From contig DATKYS010000090.1 of the NCBI GenBank assembly GCA_035528375.1, positions 1 through 13,398 on the forward strand: a DNA stretch of 13,398 bases, read 5' to 3'. Shown here one piece after another: positions 2,422-13,398 of this stretch. Position numbers and translations under genes: made by a program. Positions within the stretch are counted from its first letter, which is position 1; each line of letters starts with the position of its first letter. The notes under the pieces were generated by a model that searched no databases, was not told where the DNA came from, and saw only the letters and a program-made list of their open reading frames with translations. This stretch comes from a bacterium. Its GTDB lineage: Bacteria; RBG-13-66-14.

Positions 2422-2450
2422 TTGACACATCTGTAAAATCGTGCTATTAT
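2422..2450 (+). promoter_or_regulatory. Near-consensus sigma70 promoter of the higBA cassette
   Basis: TTGACA (2422-2427) is a perfect -35, followed by a 17-base spacer and TATTAT (2445-2450), with TGC directly before it as an extended -10. The -10 overlaps the toxin ATG at 2449-2451. A transcript starting about 7 bases downstream would therefore lack the toxin start codon while still carrying all of higA. A weaker alternative -10 (TAAAAT, 2434-2439) could give a nearly leaderless toxin message. Confidence 0.7.
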
Positions 2451-2793
2451 GCTTATCGGCTACGTTAGTAAAAGAGTAGAAGCTATTTGCACCTCGGTAG
2501 AGAAGGCCCGGAAGGTTCTTCCAAACGATGAACACATCAAGCGTTTCTTGGCACTACTTCAGAATTTGCACACTCATCAAACCCTAGCCGACATACCAAT
2601 TCATACTTCCCCCCTGCACCTCCACCCCCTGAGAGCCGACCGTAAGGGTTTCTGGGCAGCTACCATCAAGGGAAAATGGAGGGTATGTTTTCGCCCCGCA
2701 GGTGAATGCCGTTACAAACCGGACGGTTCAGTGGTGCCGCAGACGGTCACTGAAATCGAAATCGTCGAGATAGTGGATTACCACGATGACTAA
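2449..2793 (+). CDS. higB: HigB-like toxin of the RelE/ParE superfamily
   Basis: The 114-residue product matches the HigB (plasmid maintenance killer) pattern: an N-terminal two-helix region, LHPLRADRKGFW (58-69), the strand WRVCFR (77-82) and the terminal IVDYH (108-112). These residues lie on the RelE-type beta sheet that cleaves ribosome-bound mRNA in characterised members. A loop of about 12 residues (around 85-98) is longer than in compact HigB proteins. ATG 2449 gives an N-terminus that aligns with the family, and no other standard start codon lies nearby in frame. Yet there is no Shine-Dalgarno sequence, and the codon sits inside the -10 box, so translation may be poor or start may be non-standard. 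The stop overlaps the antitoxin start by 8 bases, which implies translational coupling. Composition is AT-richer than flanking genes. Confidence 0.85.
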   Translation: MLIGYVSKRVEAICTSVEKARKVLPNDEHIKRFLALLQNLHTHQTLADIPIHTSPLHLHPLRADRKGFWAATIKGKWRVCFRPAGECRYKPDGSVVPQTVTEIEIVEIVDYHDD

Positions 2794-3883
2794 AAAACCT
2801 GTAAAGCCCGGCCCGTACTACCCCCCGGTGGCGATTCCCCCCGGCTTCACCATCGAAGTGATTCTGTCTGACAGAGGTTGGACCCAGGCCGAATTGGCTC
2901 GACGGATGGGCAGGCCCATCCAAACTGTTAACGAAATTGTAAAGGGCAAAAAGGAAATAACGGCCGATACGGCGATTGAGCTCAGTCGGGTGTTGGGTTC
3001 CCCTGTATCGTTTTGGCTCAACCTGGAGGCCAACCACCGCGAAAATGTAGCGAGGCTGGAACGACTCAAAGCTGAAGAAGGGGAGGTGAAAAAGACCAGC
3101 AATTTTCCCTATGCCGAAATGGTCCGGTACGGCCTGGTCCCACCCACAAGGGTTCTGAGGGAAAGGTTCGAGCACGTGCTGGCTTTCCTCAGCGTCGCTT
3201 GTTTTGACGCGCTGGAAAGCAACCTACCCGTAGTTTTTCGTAAGACTGGTAAACTACCGGTAAGCTTTGAGAAGCTGGCGGTCTGGTTGCAGTGGGGAGA
3301 GCTGAAGATGCAGAGGCTCAAATTGGGTAGGTTTAATAAAACGAAATTGCAATCCAGCTTGAATGAGATCCGTTCTCTCACCTTGGAGAAGCCTGACTCA
3401 TTTGTCCCTAAGCTGGAGAAGATCGGCGAGGAAACGGGCGTGGCCTTTTTGTTCGTGCCCGAATTCAGGGGACTGCCCGTAACCGGCGTGACGCGGTGGA
3501 TTAACGGAAACCCCCTCGTGCAGGTGAACCTGCGTTACAAGACCAACGATCATCTTTGGTTTACGGTTTTTCACGAGATTGGGCATGTCTTGAATTCACA
3601 GAAAAAGCAAGTGTTTATCGATATAAAAGGTGAGGATAATAAAAGTGCCGACGAAGAAAAGGCTGATGAGTTTGCCTGTAGGGTTTTCGTGCCCAAAGGT
3701 GTATTCGAAGAACTCCTCAGCTTGCCTAGAATATCCGAAGCCCTGGTGATGCGATATTCTAGAAAGCTCGGTATCGCCCCCGGTATCTTAGTCGGTATGT
3801 TGCAGCACGAGGGTAAGCTCCCCCACAGTCATCTGAACGGCCTAAAAGAGAAATATACGTGGGAAATTGCACATTCCGCGTGA
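2786..3883 (+). CDS. higA: HigA antitoxin fused to an ImmA/IrrE-type metallopeptidase domain
   Basis: The 365-residue product is much longer than a plain HigA (about 90-100 residues). Residues about 20-80 form an XRE-type helix-turn-helix of HigA type (WTQAELARRMG, then VNEIVKGKKEIT and SPVSFWLNLE). The C-terminal half carries the zinc-protease motif HEIGH at 263-267, with a downstream E-x-x-A-D-x-F-A (E290) as the probable third ligand. In ImmA/IrrE proteins this domain cleaves repressors; here it could act on the antitoxin itself, the toxin or another regulator, which is inference. Long HigA/ImmA fusions next to HigB toxins are a known arrangement. The gene overlaps higB by 8 bases and probably binds the palindrome at 2392-2420. 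Its last codons contain the likely TTG start of dprA, so the two frames overlap by 17 bases. Confidence 0.9.
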   Translation: MTKKPVKPGPYYPPVAIPPGFTIEVILSDRGWTQAELARRMGRPIQTVNEIVKGKKEITADTAIELSRVLGSPVSFWLNLEANHRENVARLERLKAEEGEVKKTSNFPYAEMVRYGLVPPTRVLRERFEHVLAFLSVACFDALESNLPVVFRKTGKLPVSFEKLAVWLQWGELKMQRLKLGRFNKTKLQSSLNEIRSLTLEKPDSFVPKLEKIGEETGVAFLFVPEFRGLPVTGVTRWINGNPLVQVNLRYKTNDHLWFTVFHEIGHVLNSQKKQVFIDIKGEDNKSADEEKADEFACRVFVPKGVFEELLSLPRISEALVMRYSRKLGIAPGILVGMLQHEGKLPHSHLNGLKEKYTWEIAHSA

Positions 3884-5003
3884 CATAGCGCCGGACTCCG
3901 AGGTCGCGGCCTGGATAAGCCTGAACCTGGTCCCCGAGGTGGGGCCGGTTCACTTCCGCCGCCTGGTGGAGCGCCTGGGCTCGGCCCGGGAGGCCCTGGC
4001 GGCGCCCTACGGTCGCCTGATCCAGATTCACGGCATCGGCGAGGTCCGCGCCGCCAACATCCTCGCCGCCCGCACCGAGGCGCACCAAAAGCGCCTGGAG
4101 CGCGAGCTCGACGCGATAAAACGATTCCCCGACCTGTCCCTCTTCCTCCTCTCCGACCCCGACTACCCCGCCCCGCTCAAGGACCTGCCCGACCCGCCGC
4201 CGGTGCTGTACGTGCGTGGGAGCTACCTCCCCGAGGACCGGCTGGCGGTGTCCATGGTGGGCACCCGCAACCCGAGCCCCTACGGCCGGGAGCTGGCGCG
4301 CAAGCTGGGCGGGGGCCTGGCGCGGGTCGGGGTGACCGTGGTCTCGGGCTGCGCCGCGGGGATAGACCTCGCCTCGCAGATGGGGGCCGTCGCCGCCGGG
4401 GGGCGGTCCATCGGCGTGCTGGGTTGCGGGGTGGACCTGGTCTTCCCGGCGAACGAGGGCTCGTCCTACGACAGGATACGGGCCTCGGGCGCCCTGGTGA
4501 GCGAGTTCCCCCTGGGCACGGAGCCCCAGGCGCAGAACTTCCCCCGGCGCAACCGGCTCATCGCCGCCCTTGGGCTGGGCGTGGTTGTTGTGGAGGCGCC
4601 GCGGAAGTCCGGGGCGCTCATCACCGCCGACTTCGCCGCCGAGCTGGGCCGCGAGGTGATGTCCTGCCCCGGCAACGCCATCGGCGCCGGTGCCCGCGGC
4701 TCGCACGCCCTGTTGAAAGAAGGGGCCGCCCTGGTGGAGACGGTGGAGGACATCCTGCGGGCCGTGGGCCACGCCGCCGACCCCCGCCTCTTCGCCGACC
4801 GGGTGACCGCCCCCCAGGCGCCCGACCTGACCGACGGCGAGGCCGCCCTCCTGGAAAGCCTCACCGCCGAGCCCATCCACGTGGACGAGCTCACCTCCCG
4901 TCTGGGAAGCCCCCGGGCGGAGGTCCTCCAACTCCTGTTGTCCCTGGAGCTCAAAGGCGTCGTGGAGCCGCTCCCCGGCATGTACTACCGTCGTCCCTTC
5001 TAG
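3867..5003 (+). CDS. dprA: DprA (DNA-processing protein A), DNA uptake/recombination mediator
   Basis: DprA binds incoming single-stranded DNA and loads RecA in natural transformation, and is also widespread in non-competent bacteria. The 378-residue product has an N-terminal helical region (WISLNLVPEVGPVHFRRLVE), the Rossmann DNA-binding core from about residue 128 (MVGTRNPSPYG, SGCAAGID at 160-167, FPRRNRLIA from 225, SGALITADFA, PGN) and a C-terminal winged helix (about 318-374, ending MYYRRPF). The core motif reads SGCAAGID where SGLARGID is usual, a mild deviation. The only start that keeps the N-terminal domain is TTG 3867, inside higA, with a weak GGGA just upstream. GTG 3939 would cut the domain. 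The odd start suggests that the upstream cassette replaced the native 5' region. It is followed by topA, a common pairing. Confidence 0.93.
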   Translation: MHIPRDIAPDSEVAAWISLNLVPEVGPVHFRRLVERLGSAREALAAPYGRLIQIHGIGEVRAANILAARTEAHQKRLERELDAIKRFPDLSLFLLSDPDYPAPLKDLPDPPPVLYVRGSYLPEDRLAVSMVGTRNPSPYGRELARKLGGGLARVGVTVVSGCAAGIDLASQMGAVAAGGRSIGVLGCGVDLVFPANEGSSYDRIRASGALVSEFPLGTEPQAQNFPRRNRLIAALGLGVVVVEAPRKSGALITADFAAELGREVMSCPGNAIGAGARGSHALLKEGAALVETVEDILRAVGHAADPRLFADRVTAPQAPDLTDGEAALLESLTAEPIHVDELTSRLGSPRAEVLQLLLSLELKGVVEPLPGMYYRRPF

Positions 5004-7398: not shown

Positions 7399-7451
7399 CC
7401 CTCTCCCTCCGGGAGCGGCGTGCCGACGGGATTGGGGGTGAGGGCCACCTT
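7399..7451 (+). repeat. 53-bp repeat, copy 1
   Basis: This copy begins CCCTCTCCCTCCGGGAGCGG and ends GTGAGGGCCACCTT. It matches 7591-7643 at 51 of 53 positions in the same orientation, with differences only at the 23rd and 37th positions. The ends (CCCTCTCCC and GTGAGGG) are nearly complementary, so the element can fold on itself. Each copy is followed by an A-run, and that A-run is the T-tract of the adjoining minus-strand hairpin. Confidence 0.85.
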
Positions 7452-7453
7452 AT

Positions 7454-7483
7454 AAAAAAACGGGCCGACCTAAAGGTCGGCCC
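7454..7483 (-). terminator. Rho-independent terminator on the minus strand (repeat-derived)
   Basis: GGGCCGACCT (7462-7471) and AGGTCGGCCC (7474-7483) form a perfect 10-bp stem with a 2-base spacer. On the minus strand the stem is followed by G and seven Ts (plus-strand As 7454-7460). Before the stem the minus strand reads TTGCGATGACGTAGGGG, the repeat head seen also near 13122, 13198 and 13304. It would stop transcription coming from the glycosyltransferase and protect topA from antisense reading. Confidence 0.75.
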
Positions 7484-7590
7484 CTACGTCATCGCAACCA
7501 ACGGGCGAAGCGGTCCCCCTCTCCCTTCCAGGGAGAGGGCTGGGGTGAGGGTCGGGGTAGGGAACAGGAAAGGGCGGCGGCCCGCAGTTT

Positions 7591-7643
7591 CCCTCTCCCT
7601 CCGGGAGCGGCGCGCCGACGGGATTGAGGGTGAGGGCCACCTT
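7591..7643 (+). repeat. 53-bp repeat, copy 2
   Basis: This is the second copy of the element at 7399-7451, exactly 192 bases downstream and 51 of 53 identical. Near-identity in non-coding DNA suggests recent duplication or gene conversion between copies. Confidence 0.85.
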
Positions 7644-7645
7644 TG

Positions 7646-7674
7646 AAAAAACGGCGGGGATGGGAATCCCCGCC
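7646..7674 (-). terminator. Rho-independent terminator on the minus strand
   Basis: GGCGGGGAT (7653-7661) pairs with ATCCCCGCC (7666-7674) around a 4-base loop. On the minus strand it is preceded by ACGTAGGGC and followed by G and six Ts. It is the second of three minus-strand terminator-like hairpins in series downstream of the glycosyltransferase. Confidence 0.65.
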
Positions 7675-7816: not shown

Positions 7817-8893
7817 CTACGCGGTGAAGAAAAAATTCCCCCCCTCGACCAGCCCCAGGCGCTCGATCTCCCCCCGCATCCGCTCCCGCGCCCCGGCCTG
7901 CCCCACCGCCCCCAGATGGACGAACCGGAGAACCGAGCGCAGCGAGCTATGCCCCCGGCAAAACTCCGTGGCCCGCTCCACCGGAATCACCGGCGCGCCG
8001 AAAATCTTTGCCCCGATCCGGCCCGGGTGTACCTCAACGATGGCCTCCGGCTTCCAGCCTGCCTTTTCCAGTTCCCGCGCGAGCGCCTTGCCCACCGGCC
8101 CGCAGCCCCAGAGGACGTATCCGCCGCGCGGCTCGATCGCGTATTTCCCCAGGTAGCGGCACTTCAATGCCAGGAACGCCTCCGGCCGGTAACGCGGGTC
8201 GGTGCGCGTCAGCCGGTCCGGCCGGTCGCTCCAGACGTGGAGCACCTCCGGCACTTTCGCCAGCTTCAGCCCGCAATCGAAGACCAGACGCAGCCACAAG
8301 TCATAATCTTCGGGTCCATCGAAATCGCACCAGGCGCCAGTCTCGTTTAAAACTGCACGCCGGAGCGTCATCGTCGGGTGGACCAGCGGGCTCTCGACGA
8401 AAATCTCCCGGCGGATGTCCCCGGGCGTCACCAGGGAGTTGCTCCAGTCGAGGTAGCGCCGCGCGCCGGCGGTCATCCCACTTTCCGGCTCGACCCGGAT
8501 CAGGCAGCCGACGCCCGCCAGCTCGGCACGCTCCTTTAAATAATCCACCTGTTTTTGTAGACGGCCGGGGAGCATGGCGTCGTCGGCGTCCATGCGCGCG
8601 ATGAACTCCCCCCGGCACTCGGCCAGCCCCCGGTTGAGCGCGGCGACCAGCCCCCGGTGCGGCCCGCGGATGACCTTGATTCTCGAATCCCGCCGGGCCA
8701 GCCCCTCCAATAAATCCCCGCTCCCGTCGGTGGAGCCGTCGTCCACGGCGATTATTTCCAGCCCGACGCCCCGCTGATCCAGGCACGAGGCGACCGCCCG
8801 CGCGAGCGTGGCCCGCGCCTCGTAAACCGGCATGAGGACGGAAACCGCTGGACACGCGGACGGTGAAATATTATCCTCCGATGCGATGGGCAA
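7817..8893 (-). CDS. Family 2 glycosyltransferase with a C-terminal Rossmann-like domain
   Basis: The N-terminal part is a GT-A fold glycosyltransferase: AVSVLMPVYEARATLARAV, the VDDGSTDGS loop that binds the nucleotide sugar, the metal-binding MDADD, and GPEDYDLWLR as the catalytic-region ED motif. After about residue 255 a separate domain starts with YVLWGCGPVGKALARELE, a glycine-rich nucleotide-binding loop, then VEVHPGRIGAKIFGAPVIPVE, similar to the N-terminal domain of PglD-like sugar-modifying enzymes. A role in cell-surface glycan assembly is likely; donor and acceptor are unknown. The longest start is TTG 8893, without a visible ribosome site. A GGAGGA at 8879-8874 lies 4 bases before an in-frame ATT (8869), which may be the real, rare start. 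The first codons lie in the segment duplicated at 10018. The gene is convergent with topA. Confidence 0.87.
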   Translation of the reverse strand: MPIASEDNISPSACPAVSVLMPVYEARATLARAVASCLDQRGVGLEIIAVDDGSTDGSGDLLEGLARRDSRIKVIRGPHRGLVAALNRGLAECRGEFIARMDADDAMLPGRLQKQVDYLKERAELAGVGCLIRVEPESGMTAGARRYLDWSNSLVTPGDIRREIFVESPLVHPTMTLRRAVLNETGAWCDFDGPEDYDLWLRLVFDCGLKLAKVPEVLHVWSDRPDRLTRTDPRYRPEAFLALKCRYLGKYAIEPRGGYVLWGCGPVGKALARELEKAGWKPEAIVEVHPGRIGAKIFGAPVIPVERATEFCRGHSSLRSVLRFVHLGAVGQAGARERMRGEIERLGLVEGGNFFFTA

Positions 8894-8991
8894 CGACGCT
8901 GATTCTACTAAAATCCGAAAACCCGCGGTGGAGCTGCGCGGGGCGGTGAAGCTCTACGGCGGGCTGGCCGCCGTGGACGGGGTGGACCTCG
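8849..8991 (+). repeat. 143-bp direct repeat, left copy (flank of 1-kb island)
   Basis: This segment aligns without gaps to 10018-10160; I count 17 mismatches in 143 (about 88% identical). The last 36 or so bases are identical. It spans the start region of the glycosyltransferase plus the region upstream of, and first 35 codons of, an ABC ATPase gene. Similarity stops at CTCG (8988-8991), after which the left copy enters unrelated sequence. Confidence 0.9.
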
Positions 8992-9011
8992 AAACTCTAA
9001 ATCGTGTTTAA
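8886..9011 (+). pseudogene. Orphan 5' fragment of the ABC ATPase gene
   Basis: ATG 8886 opens a 41-codon frame whose first 35 residues parallel the intact ATPase at 10055. Both copies share GGLAAVDGVDL, and the start MGNDADSTK is identical. It then diverges into ETLNRV and a stop, just before the point where the Walker A strand would begin, so it lacks every functional ATPase motif. It is read as a dead remnant left when the island arrived. The substitutions relative to the intact gene change many residues (for instance near 10-12, 16 and 21-23), consistent with relaxed selection or with a diverged origin of one copy. Confidence 0.85.
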
Positions 9012-9113
9012 TTGGACAATTGACCTTAATGCCTTACCCCATTACTTGGAACTCGAAACTCCTTATCGTTGGTCTAGCTATACTCTAGATAACCGGTACG
9101 ACCTGGAGGAAAA

Positions 9114-9494
9114 ATGTACGAAGTATACAAGGTTGGATCCAGACATTTTATCGTCGTCGATTACTGTGACGGGCTGTATTATGCACCTCTCCCACTCAGG
9201 GCTCAGCGGAAGTTCGGGACTTCTCATGTGTCAGGTTCTTTGGATTACGTGGCGGGTTTGACGCGGCGTTTCTATACCCGCAGGGAAGCGGAAGCCGCAC
9301 GGCTTGCCGAATGGTGGGCTAAAAACAAAGATACTGTCGCTCAACTCATTAGCACCTCCGAAGAGGCTGTTAAAAGAATGGATGCCGCCGAGGAGATAGT
9401 GAACGAGATGTTGCGCTTGACTGATAGCTCTGGTGAAACGACAACCCCTTACCCTCACGGCGACGCTGATGCCGGGGCGAAGGAAAGTAAATAA
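9114..9494 (+). CDS. Unrecognised 126-residue protein, first gene of the island
   Basis: I do not recognise a family. A strong GGAGGA (9105-9110) sits just before ATG 9114, and TATACT at 9079-9084 is a possible -10 box, so expression is credible. The N-terminal half is rich in aromatic and beta-forming residues (VYKVGSRHFIVVDYCDGLYY). A charged helix follows from FYTRREAEAARLAEWWAKNK to EEIVNEMLRL, and the tail is a polar, disordered-looking stretch (residues about 105-126). No signal peptide or membrane segment is seen, so it is probably cytoplasmic. Composition is less GC-rich than neighbouring genes. It lies inside the segment bounded by the 143-bp direct repeats and is followed after 21 bases by the next island gene, so the two form a likely operon. 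Confidence 0.7.
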   Translation: MYEVYKVGSRHFIVVDYCDGLYYAPLPLRAQRKFGTSHVSGSLDYVAGLTRRFYTRREAEAARLAEWWAKNKDTVAQLISTSEEAVKRMDAAEEIVNEMLRLTDSSGETTTPYPHGDADAGAKESK

Positions 9495-9515
9495 ACGTAA
9501 ACCTGAGAGGGAAAC

Positions 9516-9995
9516 ATGAGGAGTAAAGTCGTCCTTGCCGCTGTTTGTGCCTTCGCCCTTGTAGCTGCTGTCGCCACCTGCGATGACGACGACAAGACCG
9601 CTGAGACTGTTATTGAGCCCGCTGCCGAGGACGCCCATGAGGCCGCCTTAGCCGCCTTCAAGGTTGCCGCCTACGCCGACTACGAAGCTGCCGAAGCCCG
9701 CCGTGCCGACGCTGCTGACGCTGCCTGTGAAGCCGCTGACGCCGCCGTCGCCGCCGCTAACGCTGTCGTCGCCGTACAAGACGCGGGCGGCTACGGTTGG
9801 GCCACCGCCGCCGCCGAGGCCCGCTTCAATGCCGCCGACGCCCGCTTCAACGCCGCCACCGCCCGCTTCAACGCCGCCACCGCCGACGCCGAGGCCGCCT
9901 ACGCCGCCTACGAGGCCGCCGATACCCGCTTCAACGCCGAAAAGGCTAACGACGCCAAGGTCGAAGCCAAGAACGCCAATGAGGGGAACCCCTGA
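9516..9995 (+). CDS. Alanine-rich heptad-repeat exported protein, possible lipoprotein
   Basis: The 159-residue product starts with a signal peptide (MRSKVVLAAVCAFALVAAVA). C22 after VAT could be a lipidation site, but Thr before the Cys is atypical for a lipobox. An acidic stretch (DDDD) follows. The rest is alanine-dominated, with aromatic and charged residues at regular spacing, and includes three tandem heptads ARFNAAD, ARFNAAT, ARFNAAT plus a looser fourth (TRFNAEK). A long helix or coiled coil is expected, recalling small envelope spacer lipoproteins such as Lpp in general character only; no homology is claimed. GAGAGGG at 9505-9511 precedes ATG 9516. The protein ends in a charged Lys/Asn/Glu tail without the terminal Lys that anchors Lpp. 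It is the second gene of the island operon. Confidence 0.65.
   Translation: MRSKVVLAAVCAFALVAAVATCDDDDKTAETVIEPAAEDAHEAALAAFKVAAYADYEAAEARRADAADAACEAADAAVAAANAVVAVQDAGGYGWATAAAEARFNAADARFNAATARFNAATADAEAAYAAYEAADTRFNAEKANDAKVEAKNANEGNP
9819..9881 (+). repeat. Three tandem 21-bp repeats inside the heptad protein
   Basis: GCCCGCTTCAA is followed by YGCCGCC and a variable last codon at 9819-9839, 9840-9860 and 9861-9881. Copies two and three are identical. A degenerate partial copy lies near 9924-9940. Being exact multiples of seven codons, they change protein length without breaking the heptad register. Confidence 0.85.
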
Positions 9996-10017
9996 AAAGA
10001 CCTACGCCGTCAACCAT

Positions 10018-10160
10018 TGGACACCCGGACGGTGAAATAGTATCCTCGGATGCGATGGGCAACGACGCCGATTCTACCAAAGTCTCGCCGCCCGCGGTGG
10101 GGCTGCGCGGGGCGACCAAGCGCTACGGCGGGCTGGCCGCCGTGGACGGGGTGGACCTCG
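10018..10160 (+). repeat. 143-bp direct repeat, right copy
   Basis: This is the right partner of 8849-8991. It includes about 37 bases upstream of, and the first 35 codons of, the intact ABC ATPase, and continues without a break into the functional gene. Weak similarity extends a few bases further left (AACC at 10012-10015). Confidence 0.9.
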
Positions 10161-11029
10161 CCGTCCGCCCCGGCGAGCTTTTCGGCCTGCTCGGTCCCAA
10201 CGGCGCCGGGAAAACCACCACCATCAACCTCATCGCGGGCTACATCGCCCCGGACGCGGGGGAGGTGCGGCTGGACGGCCTGCCCCCGACGCGGCCCGAG
10301 GCGCGGCGCAGGCTGGGCCTGGCCCCCCAGGAAATCGCCCTCTACGACGGGCTCACCGCCCGCGAGAACCTGGCCTTCTTCGGCTCCCTCTACGGCCTCA
10401 CGCGGCGGGAGCTCGCGCAACGGGTGGACTGGGCCCTCGATGTGGCGGGGCTCAAGGACCGGGCGCACGAGCCGGTGAAGCGCTTCTCCGGCGGCATGGC
10501 CCGGAGGCTGAACCTCGTGTGCGCCCTCGTCCACCGCCCGGAAATCCTTCTGGCCGACGAGCCCACCGCCGGGGTGGACCCCCAGTCGCGGGCCCACATC
10601 TTCGACACCATCCGCTCCCTCGCCGCCGAAGGCACCACCGTCGTCTACACCACGCACTACATGGAGGAGGCCTCGGCGCTCTGCGAGCGCATCGCCATCC
10701 TGGACCACGGGAAGCTCCTGGCGCTGGGCACCGAGGAGGAATTGCTGAAACTCTCCGGGGAGCGGACGCGGCTGGACTTCGAGCTGACGGGCGGGGAGAT
10801 TTTGGACGACCTCGATAAACGGCTGCGGGGGCTGGCGGGGGTCATCGAGCTGGCCGCCTCCGACGGGCGGCTGACGCTCTTCACCGACCCCGCGGCGCGG
10901 GTGCTGGCGTCGGCGGTGGGGCTATTGAACGGCGCGGGCCTGCGGGTGGGCGGTGTGGACATCGTCCGGGCCGACCTGGAGACGGTTTTCCTCTCCCTCA
11001 CCGGCCGCGCCCTGCGCGACGGCGGTTAG
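10055..11029 (+). CDS. ABC-2 type transporter, ATP-binding protein
   Basis: This is the ATPase of a multidrug/antibiotic/Nod-type exporter. The 324-residue product has Walker A GPNGAGKTT (47-55), the Q-loop region APQEIALYDGLT, the signature FSGGM (144-148), Walker B ILLADEPT with D168 and E169, and the switch histidine H201 in TTHYMEEA. After about residue 225 comes a C-terminal extension typical of DrrA/CcmA-like exporters. The start at ATG 10055 has no good ribosome site, but the N-terminal strand VGLRGATKRYGG is in place. Its first 35 codons and upstream region are duplicated at 8849-8991, so its 5' end may have been supplied by the inserted island. The permease follows after 3 bases, so they form one transporter. 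The substrate is unknown. Confidence 0.94.
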   Translation: MGNDADSTKVSPPAVGLRGATKRYGGLAAVDGVDLAVRPGELFGLLGPNGAGKTTTINLIAGYIAPDAGEVRLDGLPPTRPEARRRLGLAPQEIALYDGLTARENLAFFGSLYGLTRRELAQRVDWALDVAGLKDRAHEPVKRFSGGMARRLNLVCALVHRPEILLADEPTAGVDPQSRAHIFDTIRSLAAEGTTVVYTTHYMEEASALCERIAILDHGKLLALGTEEELLKLSGERTRLDFELTGGEILDDLDKRLRGLAGVIELAASDGRLTLFTDPAARVLASAVGLLNGAGLRVGGVDIVRADLETVFLSLTGRALRDGG

Positions 11030-11032
11030 TCC

Positions 11033-12274
11033 ATGAATAAACTCTGGGCCATATTCAAGAAGGACTGGCGCGCGTTCCTGCGCGACCCCAAGGCCGTCCT
11101 CCTCTCATCACTCCTGCCCATCGGCATGATGCTGGTGGTGGGCTTCGCCTTCTCCGGGGGCGGGGAGTGGGTCATCGAGCTGGCCGTGGTGGACTCGGAC
11201 GGCGGCGAGGCCGCGAAGACACTCCTGAAAACCATCGGGGACTCCGGGGTGTGCGTGCTGGTCCCGCTGCCCGACGAGGCCGCTGCGCGGGCGGCTCTGG
11301 AGGACAACGACTACGCCGCGGCGCTCTTGATCCCCCCGGGATTCACCGGGGCCGTGGAGAAAAACGCCGACGCCGGGCTCACCCTTCTGACCAACCCCCG
11401 GCGCGACCAGGAGCTGCGCGTTCTGGAAAACCTGGTCCAGGGCGCCTCCATCGCCCCGGCGGGGAAGAACGTCGCCCTGCGCATGGCCGACCGCTTCCTC
11501 GACGAGGCGGATTTCGTCTCCCCCGAGGCCCGTGAGGACGTGCGCGGCGAGGTCCGCTCCTACATCACCGAGGAGGAGGGGTCGGGAGGTTCGCTGGACT
11601 GGCAGGACTTCACCGAGTCCGGGTCGCCGGTGCGGGTGACGATCGAGGAGGTGCGGGCCACGGCGGCGGAGTGGAACGCCATCCTGCACTACGTGCCGGG
11701 TTACGCGGTGATGTTCGCGCTTTTCGGGGCGGCGTCGGCGGCGGCGGGCGTCCTGGCCGAGCGGGAGAAGGGCCTCGCCCGGCGCATCCTCACCTCGCCG
11801 CTTTCGCTCAAGGGCTACCTCCTGGGCAAGTCCGGCTTCCTGTTGACGCTGCCCGTGGCGCAGATGGGCCTCTTGTTCGGTTTCGGGGCGGTGGCCTTCG
11901 GGGCGGTCTACCCCGGCTCGACGGTCGCGCTCCTGGTTGTGAGCGTGTGCGTGGTCGCGGCCTCGGTGGGGCTGGCGCTGGCCCTGTTGGCCTTCTGCCG
12001 CACCGCCAAGCAGGTTGACCAGCTCGGCCTGTTGGTGATTCTGGTGATGAGCGCCCTGGGCGGGAGCTGGTGGCCGCTGTTCATCACGCCGGAGTGGATG
12101 CAATCCCTGGCGCACATCACGATAAACGCCTGGGCCATGGACGCCTACGCGGAGCTCTTCACTTTCGGCGGCGGCCTGGGCGACGTTCTGGTCCCCTGCC
12201 TGGTACTCCTGGGGTACGGGGTGGTCGGATTCGGCCTGGCGTTGTGGCGTTACCGGCCCCAGGAGGTCCGGTGA
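11033..12274 (+). CDS. ABC-2 type transporter, permease
   Basis: The 413-residue product has the layout of ABC-2 permeases. One membrane helix near residues 21-41 (AVLLSSLLPIGMMLVVGFAF) is followed by a large extracytoplasmic domain (about 42-220, soluble and acidic), then five or so hydrophobic helices from about 223 to the end. EREKGLARRILTSPLS between the second and third helices is the usual cytoplasmic coupling segment. It ends in a short basic tail (LWRYRPQEVR). It starts 3 bases after the ATPase stop and must be co-expressed with it. The export cargo is not evident; the large periplasmic loop is typical of the YhgE/YbhR-like exporter subgroup. Confidence 0.9.
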   Translation: MNKLWAIFKKDWRAFLRDPKAVLLSSLLPIGMMLVVGFAFSGGGEWVIELAVVDSDGGEAAKTLLKTIGDSGVCVLVPLPDEAAARAALEDNDYAAALLIPPGFTGAVEKNADAGLTLLTNPRRDQELRVLENLVQGASIAPAGKNVALRMADRFLDEADFVSPEAREDVRGEVRSYITEEEGSGGSLDWQDFTESGSPVRVTIEEVRATAAEWNAILHYVPGYAVMFALFGAASAAAGVLAEREKGLARRILTSPLSLKGYLLGKSGFLLTLPVAQMGLLFGFGAVAFGAVYPGSTVALLVVSVCVVAASVGLALALLAFCRTAKQVDQLGLLVILVMSALGGSWWPLFITPEWMQSLAHITINAWAMDAYAELFTFGGGLGDVLVPCLVLLGYGVVGFGLALWRYRPQEVR

Positions 12275-13062: not shown

Positions 13063-13136
13063 GCGGCGTGGGTGGGGGACCGCCGCGGTTGTTTTGTGAT
13101 TAACTGACCCTTGGCGACGAACTGCGATGACGTAGG

Positions 13137-13177
13137 GGCCGACCGACGGCGCGCCGTTTAGGTCGGCCGGTTTTTTT
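13137..13177 (+). terminator. Rho-independent terminator after acpS (repeat-derived)
   Basis: GGCCGACC (13137-13144) pairs with GGTCGGCC (13161-13168), and the interior contains a second palindrome, ACGGCGCGCCGT (13146-13157). GG and seven Ts (13171-13177) follow. The stem is preceded by TGCGATGACGTAGGGG, the shared repeat head, so a dispersed repeat serves here as the terminator of acpS. Confidence 0.85.
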
Positions 13178-13197
13178 ACGAAAGCCATCGCCCTTCC

Positions 13198-13233
13198 TTG
13201 CGATGATGTAGGGCGGCCCCTCTGCGGGCCGCC
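13198..13233 (+). repeat. Head-plus-hairpin repeat unit
   Basis: The head TTGCGATGATGTAGGG (13198-13213) runs into the stem GGCGGCCC/GGGCCGCC around a 6-base loop. No T-tract follows. Confidence 0.75.
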
Positions 13234-13303
13234 GCGTTCTCTTCTATCCCGACCCCGACCCTCACCCCCATCCTCTCCCTGAAAGGGAGAGGGAGAATAA
13301 GGG

Positions 13304-13339
13304 TTGCGATGATGTAGGGGCGGGTGTCCACACCCGCCC
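13304..13339 (+). repeat. Head-plus-hairpin repeat unit
   Basis: The head TTGCGATGATGTAGGGG (13304-13320) overlaps a perfect 9-bp stem, GGGCGGGTG/CACCCGCCC, with loop TCCA. A second hairpin (13342-13363) follows almost directly. The stem is a cleaner version of the hairpin at 7706-7727. Confidence 0.8.
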
Positions 13340-13398
13340 GCGGGCGACCGTGGACGGTCGCCCCAACGGGGAATTGCGCGGTTTTAAATGTAGGGCGG

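Follow-up and report, generated by a model that had tools for sequence, protein, structure and literature searches.

Integrative elements that carry a tyrosine integrase, such as the islands found at tRNA genes or at the 5′ or 3′ ends of other genes, insert into a gene end and restore it. A different kind of event, termed 'insertion with long target duplication', emerged when two Helicobacter pylori genomes were compared, and is often tied to restriction-modification genes (Nobusato, Uchiyama, Ohashi, Kobayashi 2000, as described in PMC1643837); a further paper speaks of 'long and variable target duplications' (PMC3031569). In homology-facilitated illegitimate recombination, short linear foreign DNA with one end homologous to the recipient is captured (PMC3240628).

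The window, that is, the whole stretch of 13,398 nucleotides of bacterial DNA analysed here, contains an island that belongs to the second of these kinds, and it is set apart by phylum, by cargo and by the occurrence of several events per genome. As in the H. pylori cases, one or more foreign genes are missing in a relative, the target is present as long direct repeats of variable length and there is no transposase. Sites without the insert were found in the congeners G001 and G003 for the window locus, in G002 for a second locus at ftsX and in G001, G002 and G003 for a third at an aldehyde dehydrogenase (P5CDH-like) gene, and the respective duplications of 149, 108 and 79 bp are far longer than those made by transposases. 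In contrast to H. pylori, where the cargo described is mainly restriction-modification genes (frequent, not obligatory), the islands here carry orphan, Ala-rich heptad-repeat, LpoB/CsgG-like and zinc-ribbon-like genes, and no restriction-modification genes were detected among the island proteins searched against Pfam, NCBIfam, PHROGs and PADLOC. Furthermore, the duplicated segments here hold gene ends, and a single genome from another phylum contains several events that seem to differ in age. With integrative elements that restore gene ends, the locus shares a target gene that stays functional and a displaced gene-end fragment that is left behind. However, no integrase is encoded in the island, which measures about 1 kb, and targets, lengths and sequences differ between the loci: an ABC ATPase gene, ftsX and the P5CDH-like gene have neither an attachment sequence nor a target family in common. 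Homology-facilitated illegitimate recombination is similar in that the captured DNA brings no recombinase of its own, but it needs one end homologous to the recipient (PMC3240628). A donor that combines island and segment is not known, and at the P5CDH-like locus both copies are derived from resident DNA. The locus bears on the open question of how compact bacterial genomes acquire small orphan genes when no mobile element is involved.

The features of the locus are listed in Table 1. An earlier note on this DNA had described direct repeats of 143 bp with 17 mismatches. While that count is exact for the core, six bases at the start had been missed, and the complete repeat comprises 149 bp without gaps, with 130/149 identical positions (19 mismatches, self-BLAST E = 1.6e-45, longest identical run 38 bp) and exactly two copies in 1.90 Mb of the source genome. 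As the note had stated, the right copy is part of an intact ATPase gene and the left copy is a fragment that falls short of Walker A; it reaches codon 35 and then reads into the stop at 9011. The divergent glycosyltransferase gene likewise begins within the segment (start codon TTG at 8893, minus strand), which includes its first codons. Since the segment thus comprises the 5′ ends of both neighbours, the left copy serves the glycosyltransferase and the right copy the ABC exporter gene; neither gene is disrupted. Between the copies, the two genes and the differing composition reported before were found again, with the length corrected from about 1,026 to 1,020 bases, and the island ORFs match no recombinase family, as had been supposed. 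The GC content of the sampled genome is 0.65, versus the lower value of the island, whose first ~120 bp drop to 0.40.

Table 1. Features at the island locus (window coordinates).
Feature	Position	Strand	Remarks
Family 2 glycosyltransferase	7817..8893	-	left neighbour, intact
59-codon ORF	8832..9011	+	relic of ABC N-terminus running into island; substitutions look unconstrained
Left copy of duplicated target	8843..8991	+	5′ codons of glycosyltransferase on minus strand, promoter-like element, relic of ABC ATPase codons 1-35
Promoter-like TGGACA-17-TATCCT, left copy	8849..8877	+	directed into island; consensus match only
Inserted island, 1,020 bp, GC 0.577	8992..10011	+	missing at orthologous site of two congeners
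ORF1, 126 aa	9114..9494	+	orphan, foreign codon usage
ORF2, 159 aa	9516..9995	+	Ala-rich heptad-repeat protein, signal-peptide-like start
Last 13 island bases, GACCTACGCCGTC	9999..10011	+	echo of target sequence spanning left copy's end, GACCTCGCCGTC, one extra base
Right copy of 149-bp segment	10012..10160	+	5′ part of intact ABC ATPase
Promoter-like TGGACA-17-TATCCT, right copy	10018..10046	+	just upstream of ABC gene; consensus match only
ABC exporter ATPase, 324 aa	10055..11029	+	right neighbour, intact
ABC-2 type permease	11033..12274	+	partner of ATPase

We then characterised the island genes. The GC3 of ORF1 is 0.54, against 0.92-0.94 in the ABC ATPase and permease genes. Its codon-usage distance amounts to 0.95, a value that host fragments, with 0.62 at most, do not reach. 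No relatives were detected in 97 other genomes, phages or plasmids, and no family in Pfam, PHROG, NCBIfam or PADLOC matched above the cut-off. A weak match to DUF4122 (E 0.003, below cut-off) was not trusted, and an assignment as a phage or plasmid gene was rejected because phage and plasmid matches were lacking; the sole IMG/VR match, a 30-residue stretch within a 1,316-aa ORF resembling a phage tape-measure protein, was judged a chance hit. The AlphaFold model of ORF1 is poor (pLDDT 47). The heptads of ORF2 correspond to 21-nt repeats at window 9661-9939, and the protein is coiled-coil-like and rich in alanine. None of its protein matches in the congeners passed. Similar Ala-rich genes adjoin genes that, by eye, we take to be yebC-like, both in the source genome (C62, L102) and in the congener G003 (C395, L031). 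A donor sequence for the island was not found in the genomes, phages and plasmids searched. The suggestion that the repeat or the island might recur at other ABC genes led nowhere, since stretches of the source genome and of its relatives gave short chance matches only.

Evidence for an insertion came from the orthologous locus in G001 and G003, two members of the same genus with ATPase protein identities of 88% and 78%. The G001 counterpart of window 7819-8991 is L002 464-1606, and that of window 10012-11021 is L002 1458-2467; both alignments cover 1458-1606, which is exactly the 149-bp segment, present as a single copy. G003 has the same configuration, with one copy of the segment and the glycosyltransferase gene adjoining the ABC ATPase gene. 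The island is absent from this locus and from genome searches of both congeners. Since one copy and no island is the pattern that had been named beforehand as supporting an insertion, that claim was borne out. Because G001 and G003 keep the empty site, sequence comparison identifies the window locus as an insertion with long target duplication and not as a decayed tandem paralogue. A scan of genome contigs for the permease returned distant loci only, mostly from Chloroflexota, and was of no help regarding the empty site.

To look for recurrence, a total of 1.90 Mb in 141 stretches (genome size 2.63 Mb) was scanned for repeats of at least 60 bp with at least 80% identity, 300-3000 bp apart and with no more than two copies. 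Eight direct and no inverted low-copy repeats were obtained. Judged by their sequence layout, at least two more loci in the 1.9 Mb scanned have an architecture like that of the window. At C64 (L104), the repeat consists of the first 36 ftsX codons (701-808 and 1855-1962; 108 bp, 92% identity, longest identical run 44 bp) and encloses an island of 1,046 bp with a GC content of 0.45 and one LpoB/CsgG-like gene. G002 has one copy and no island here, and a single ftsX start is also present in G003-G006. At C140 (L139), the last 79 bp of the P5CDH-like gene are duplicated with 97.5% identity around 895 bp of GC 0.41, which contain two small genes, one with a zinc-ribbon-like start. In G003, a 185-bp duplication of the P5CDH-like 3′ end surrounds the adjoining radical-SAM-like gene (gene names assigned by eye).

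Two further cases are probable, with duplications of 75 and 77 bp. At C30, the 3′ end of a zinc-ribbon gene flanks a cupin-like gene; in G001 and G002, the match goes no further than the end of the zinc-ribbon gene, while in G003 the cupin-like gene is present and the fragment is displaced. At C105, a folD-like 3′ end flanks a 1.3-kb insert. Sequence common to the islands of the window, ftsX and P5CDH-like loci was not found. The recurrence points to a repeated and little-understood gain of genes without a transposon.

Other direct repeats from the scan were rejected as scars of capture. Those at ExbD-like and dehydratase-like genes look like tandem paralogues by eye. The C29 repeat (L069 8309-8439 and 9652-9782), of which one copy reaches the contig end, is a shared promoter-plus-signal-peptide segment; with 131 bp and 98.5% identity it precedes two different mature proteins, one of them repeat-rich and beta-propeller-like. 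In addition, a nucleotidyltransferase-domain gene lies between the ftsE-like gene and ftsX, upstream of the duplicated ftsX start (L104 226-700), and G002 has a similar stretch. A large family of secreted proteins, which combine an N-terminal LpoB/CsgG-like module with C-termini that vary, has 15 matches in the source genome and 8-10 per congener.

The best explanation for these loci, to which we assign a probability of roughly 0.58, is illegitimate capture of the island with duplication of resident target DNA. A fragment of about 0.5-1.3 kb would be captured independently of RecA at a broken or stalled site of the chromosome. Either two nicks 75-150 nt apart would create long staggered ends, with fill-in and sealing enclosing the fragment, or a replication fork would switch to the fragment and return 75-150 bp upstream. 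Both variants would duplicate resident DNA over a variable length and would require no recombinase encoded by the element. Insertions within ~150 bp of a gene end would be harmless, as the duplication rebuilds the gene, and such insertions would survive. In the window, the left copy keeps the 5′ end of the glycosyltransferase gene, and the island genes may be expressed from the ABC promoter that it contains; the right copy keeps the ABC gene whole. Because preservation by the rebuilt gene can account for a preference for gene ends without site specificity, and because both 5′ and 3′ ends of unrelated genes were struck, the apparent targeting of gene ends probably reflects survivorship rather than site specificity. 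The rule suggested is that an insertion close to a gene end does no harm when the target duplication is long.

Classical end joining is unlikely, since Ku (PF02735) had no match in G000-G003 and G006, with G000 being the source genome. A site-specific element is a poor fit as well, given the variable duplication lengths, the unrelated targets and islands, the lack of a recombinase in the islands and the presence of just two tyrosine recombinases in the whole genome, which are encoded on other contigs and are presumably XerC and XerD. Clean microhomology or donor sequence could not be shown at the insertion junctions. That the lineage possesses a dedicated gene-capture process, which would repeatedly insert ~1-kb fragments of one or two genes near gene ends with a staggered duplication of 75-150 bp and without a mobile-element recombinase, seems very doubtful to us.

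The age and the origin of the copies were assessed from their substitutions. At the window locus, the copies share 130/149 positions with each other and 134/149 and 131/149 with the sister species, and the substitutions are evenly split between left and right, which does not single out either copy as the native one. Lineage-specific sites amount to 4-4.5% in the flanking genes; had the duplications been recent, ~6 common changes would be expected at the window locus and ~5 at ftsX. At neither locus was a substitution found that both copies have in common against the relatives, so that either the two events date from about the time when the species separated, or one copy was imported. In the former case, loss in the sister species would be entailed. 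The P5CDH-like copies, in turn, have 3 substitutions in common that are absent from all three congeners and 5 more that are absent from two of the three. Since both copies carry lineage-specific substitutions, the duplicate at this locus was made from resident DNA. Together with their empty sites, these insertions of differing apparent age provide a natural series for studying duplication length, copy origin and decay.

These results bear on the proposal of the earlier note that the gene was restored by a slightly diverged 5′ end brought along by the island. In this form, the island would have come from a related lineage on a circle or a taken-up fragment that included a copy of the gene end, and would have entered there by homologous recombination, either as a Campbell-type single crossover or by homology-facilitated illegitimate recombination, so that one copy is donor-derived. 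The window copies, which differ from each other as much as from the sister species and have no lineage-specific change in common, would fit an imported copy and an old duplication alike, and the claim could hold for this locus. ComEC is encoded in the source genome and the gene at window 3867-5003 was judged by eye to be DprA-like, which makes DNA uptake possible; small linear DNA with one homologous end can be integrated by the homology-facilitated route (PMC3240628). However, the resident-lineage substitutions in both P5CDH-like copies contradict import there, divergence does not change abruptly just beyond the right copy, and the origin of the chimeric donor would merely be moved back one step. 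We consider import possible but unlikely.

A history in two steps, with a short tandem duplication of the 5′ region followed by insertion of the island into the first copy, is rather improbable. If part of the first copy had stayed behind after the island, an echo of the target sequence such as that at the end of the island, with its one extra base, would be expected; it is a lead in this direction that is suggestive only. Yet the echo is modest (an equal score is reached by 1.2% of random genomic 20-mers), has no counterpart at the ftsX and P5CDH-like loci, and two rare events would be required at each of several loci, while no bare tandem duplication was seen in the relatives examined.

An assembly artefact might be suspected in a metagenome-derived draft of 144 contigs, but is highly improbable. 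The identical runs of at most 38 bp (window) and 44 bp (ftsX) are too short to confuse usual assembly k-mers, which also speaks against the misassembly that the earlier note had listed as a possible refutation; a mis-join would produce identical copies instead of 87% identity, and the coding frames are intact on both sides. That a tandem paralogue of the ABC ATPase was deleted and left its stump as the left copy is hardly tenable: although a deletion also leaves a truncated copy beside an intact one, no relative shows two complete tandem ABC ATPase genes here, the glycosyltransferase gene of both congeners directly adjoins a single ABC gene, the duplication takes in non-coding and glycosyltransferase sequence, and the like pattern recurs at ftsX and the P5CDH-like gene, one of them at a 3′ end.

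Further segments of interest were observed in and around the window. The sister species G001 has an insert of its own, 0.83 kb with a GC content of 0.32, exactly between the ABC ATPase and permease genes (C238, L022 4802-5632). It contains one gene with a weak DUF429 hint below cut-off, and no long target duplication was found at this insert. Within the window, 2449-3883 is a second acquired segment of low GC content (0.50-0.51), a gene pair that consists of a HigB-like toxin, whose Pfam match (E 0.016) falls short of the cut-off, and an HTH/IrrE-like (ImmA-type) antitoxin, which matches PADLOC PD-Lambda-2_B (6.6e-27). Finally, high-copy intergenic repeats of the CCCTCTCCCTCCGGGAGCGGC and GTAGGGGCGGGTGTCCACACCCGCCC types occupy window 7399-7651 and 13123-13398 and occur on many contigs of the source genome and its relatives.
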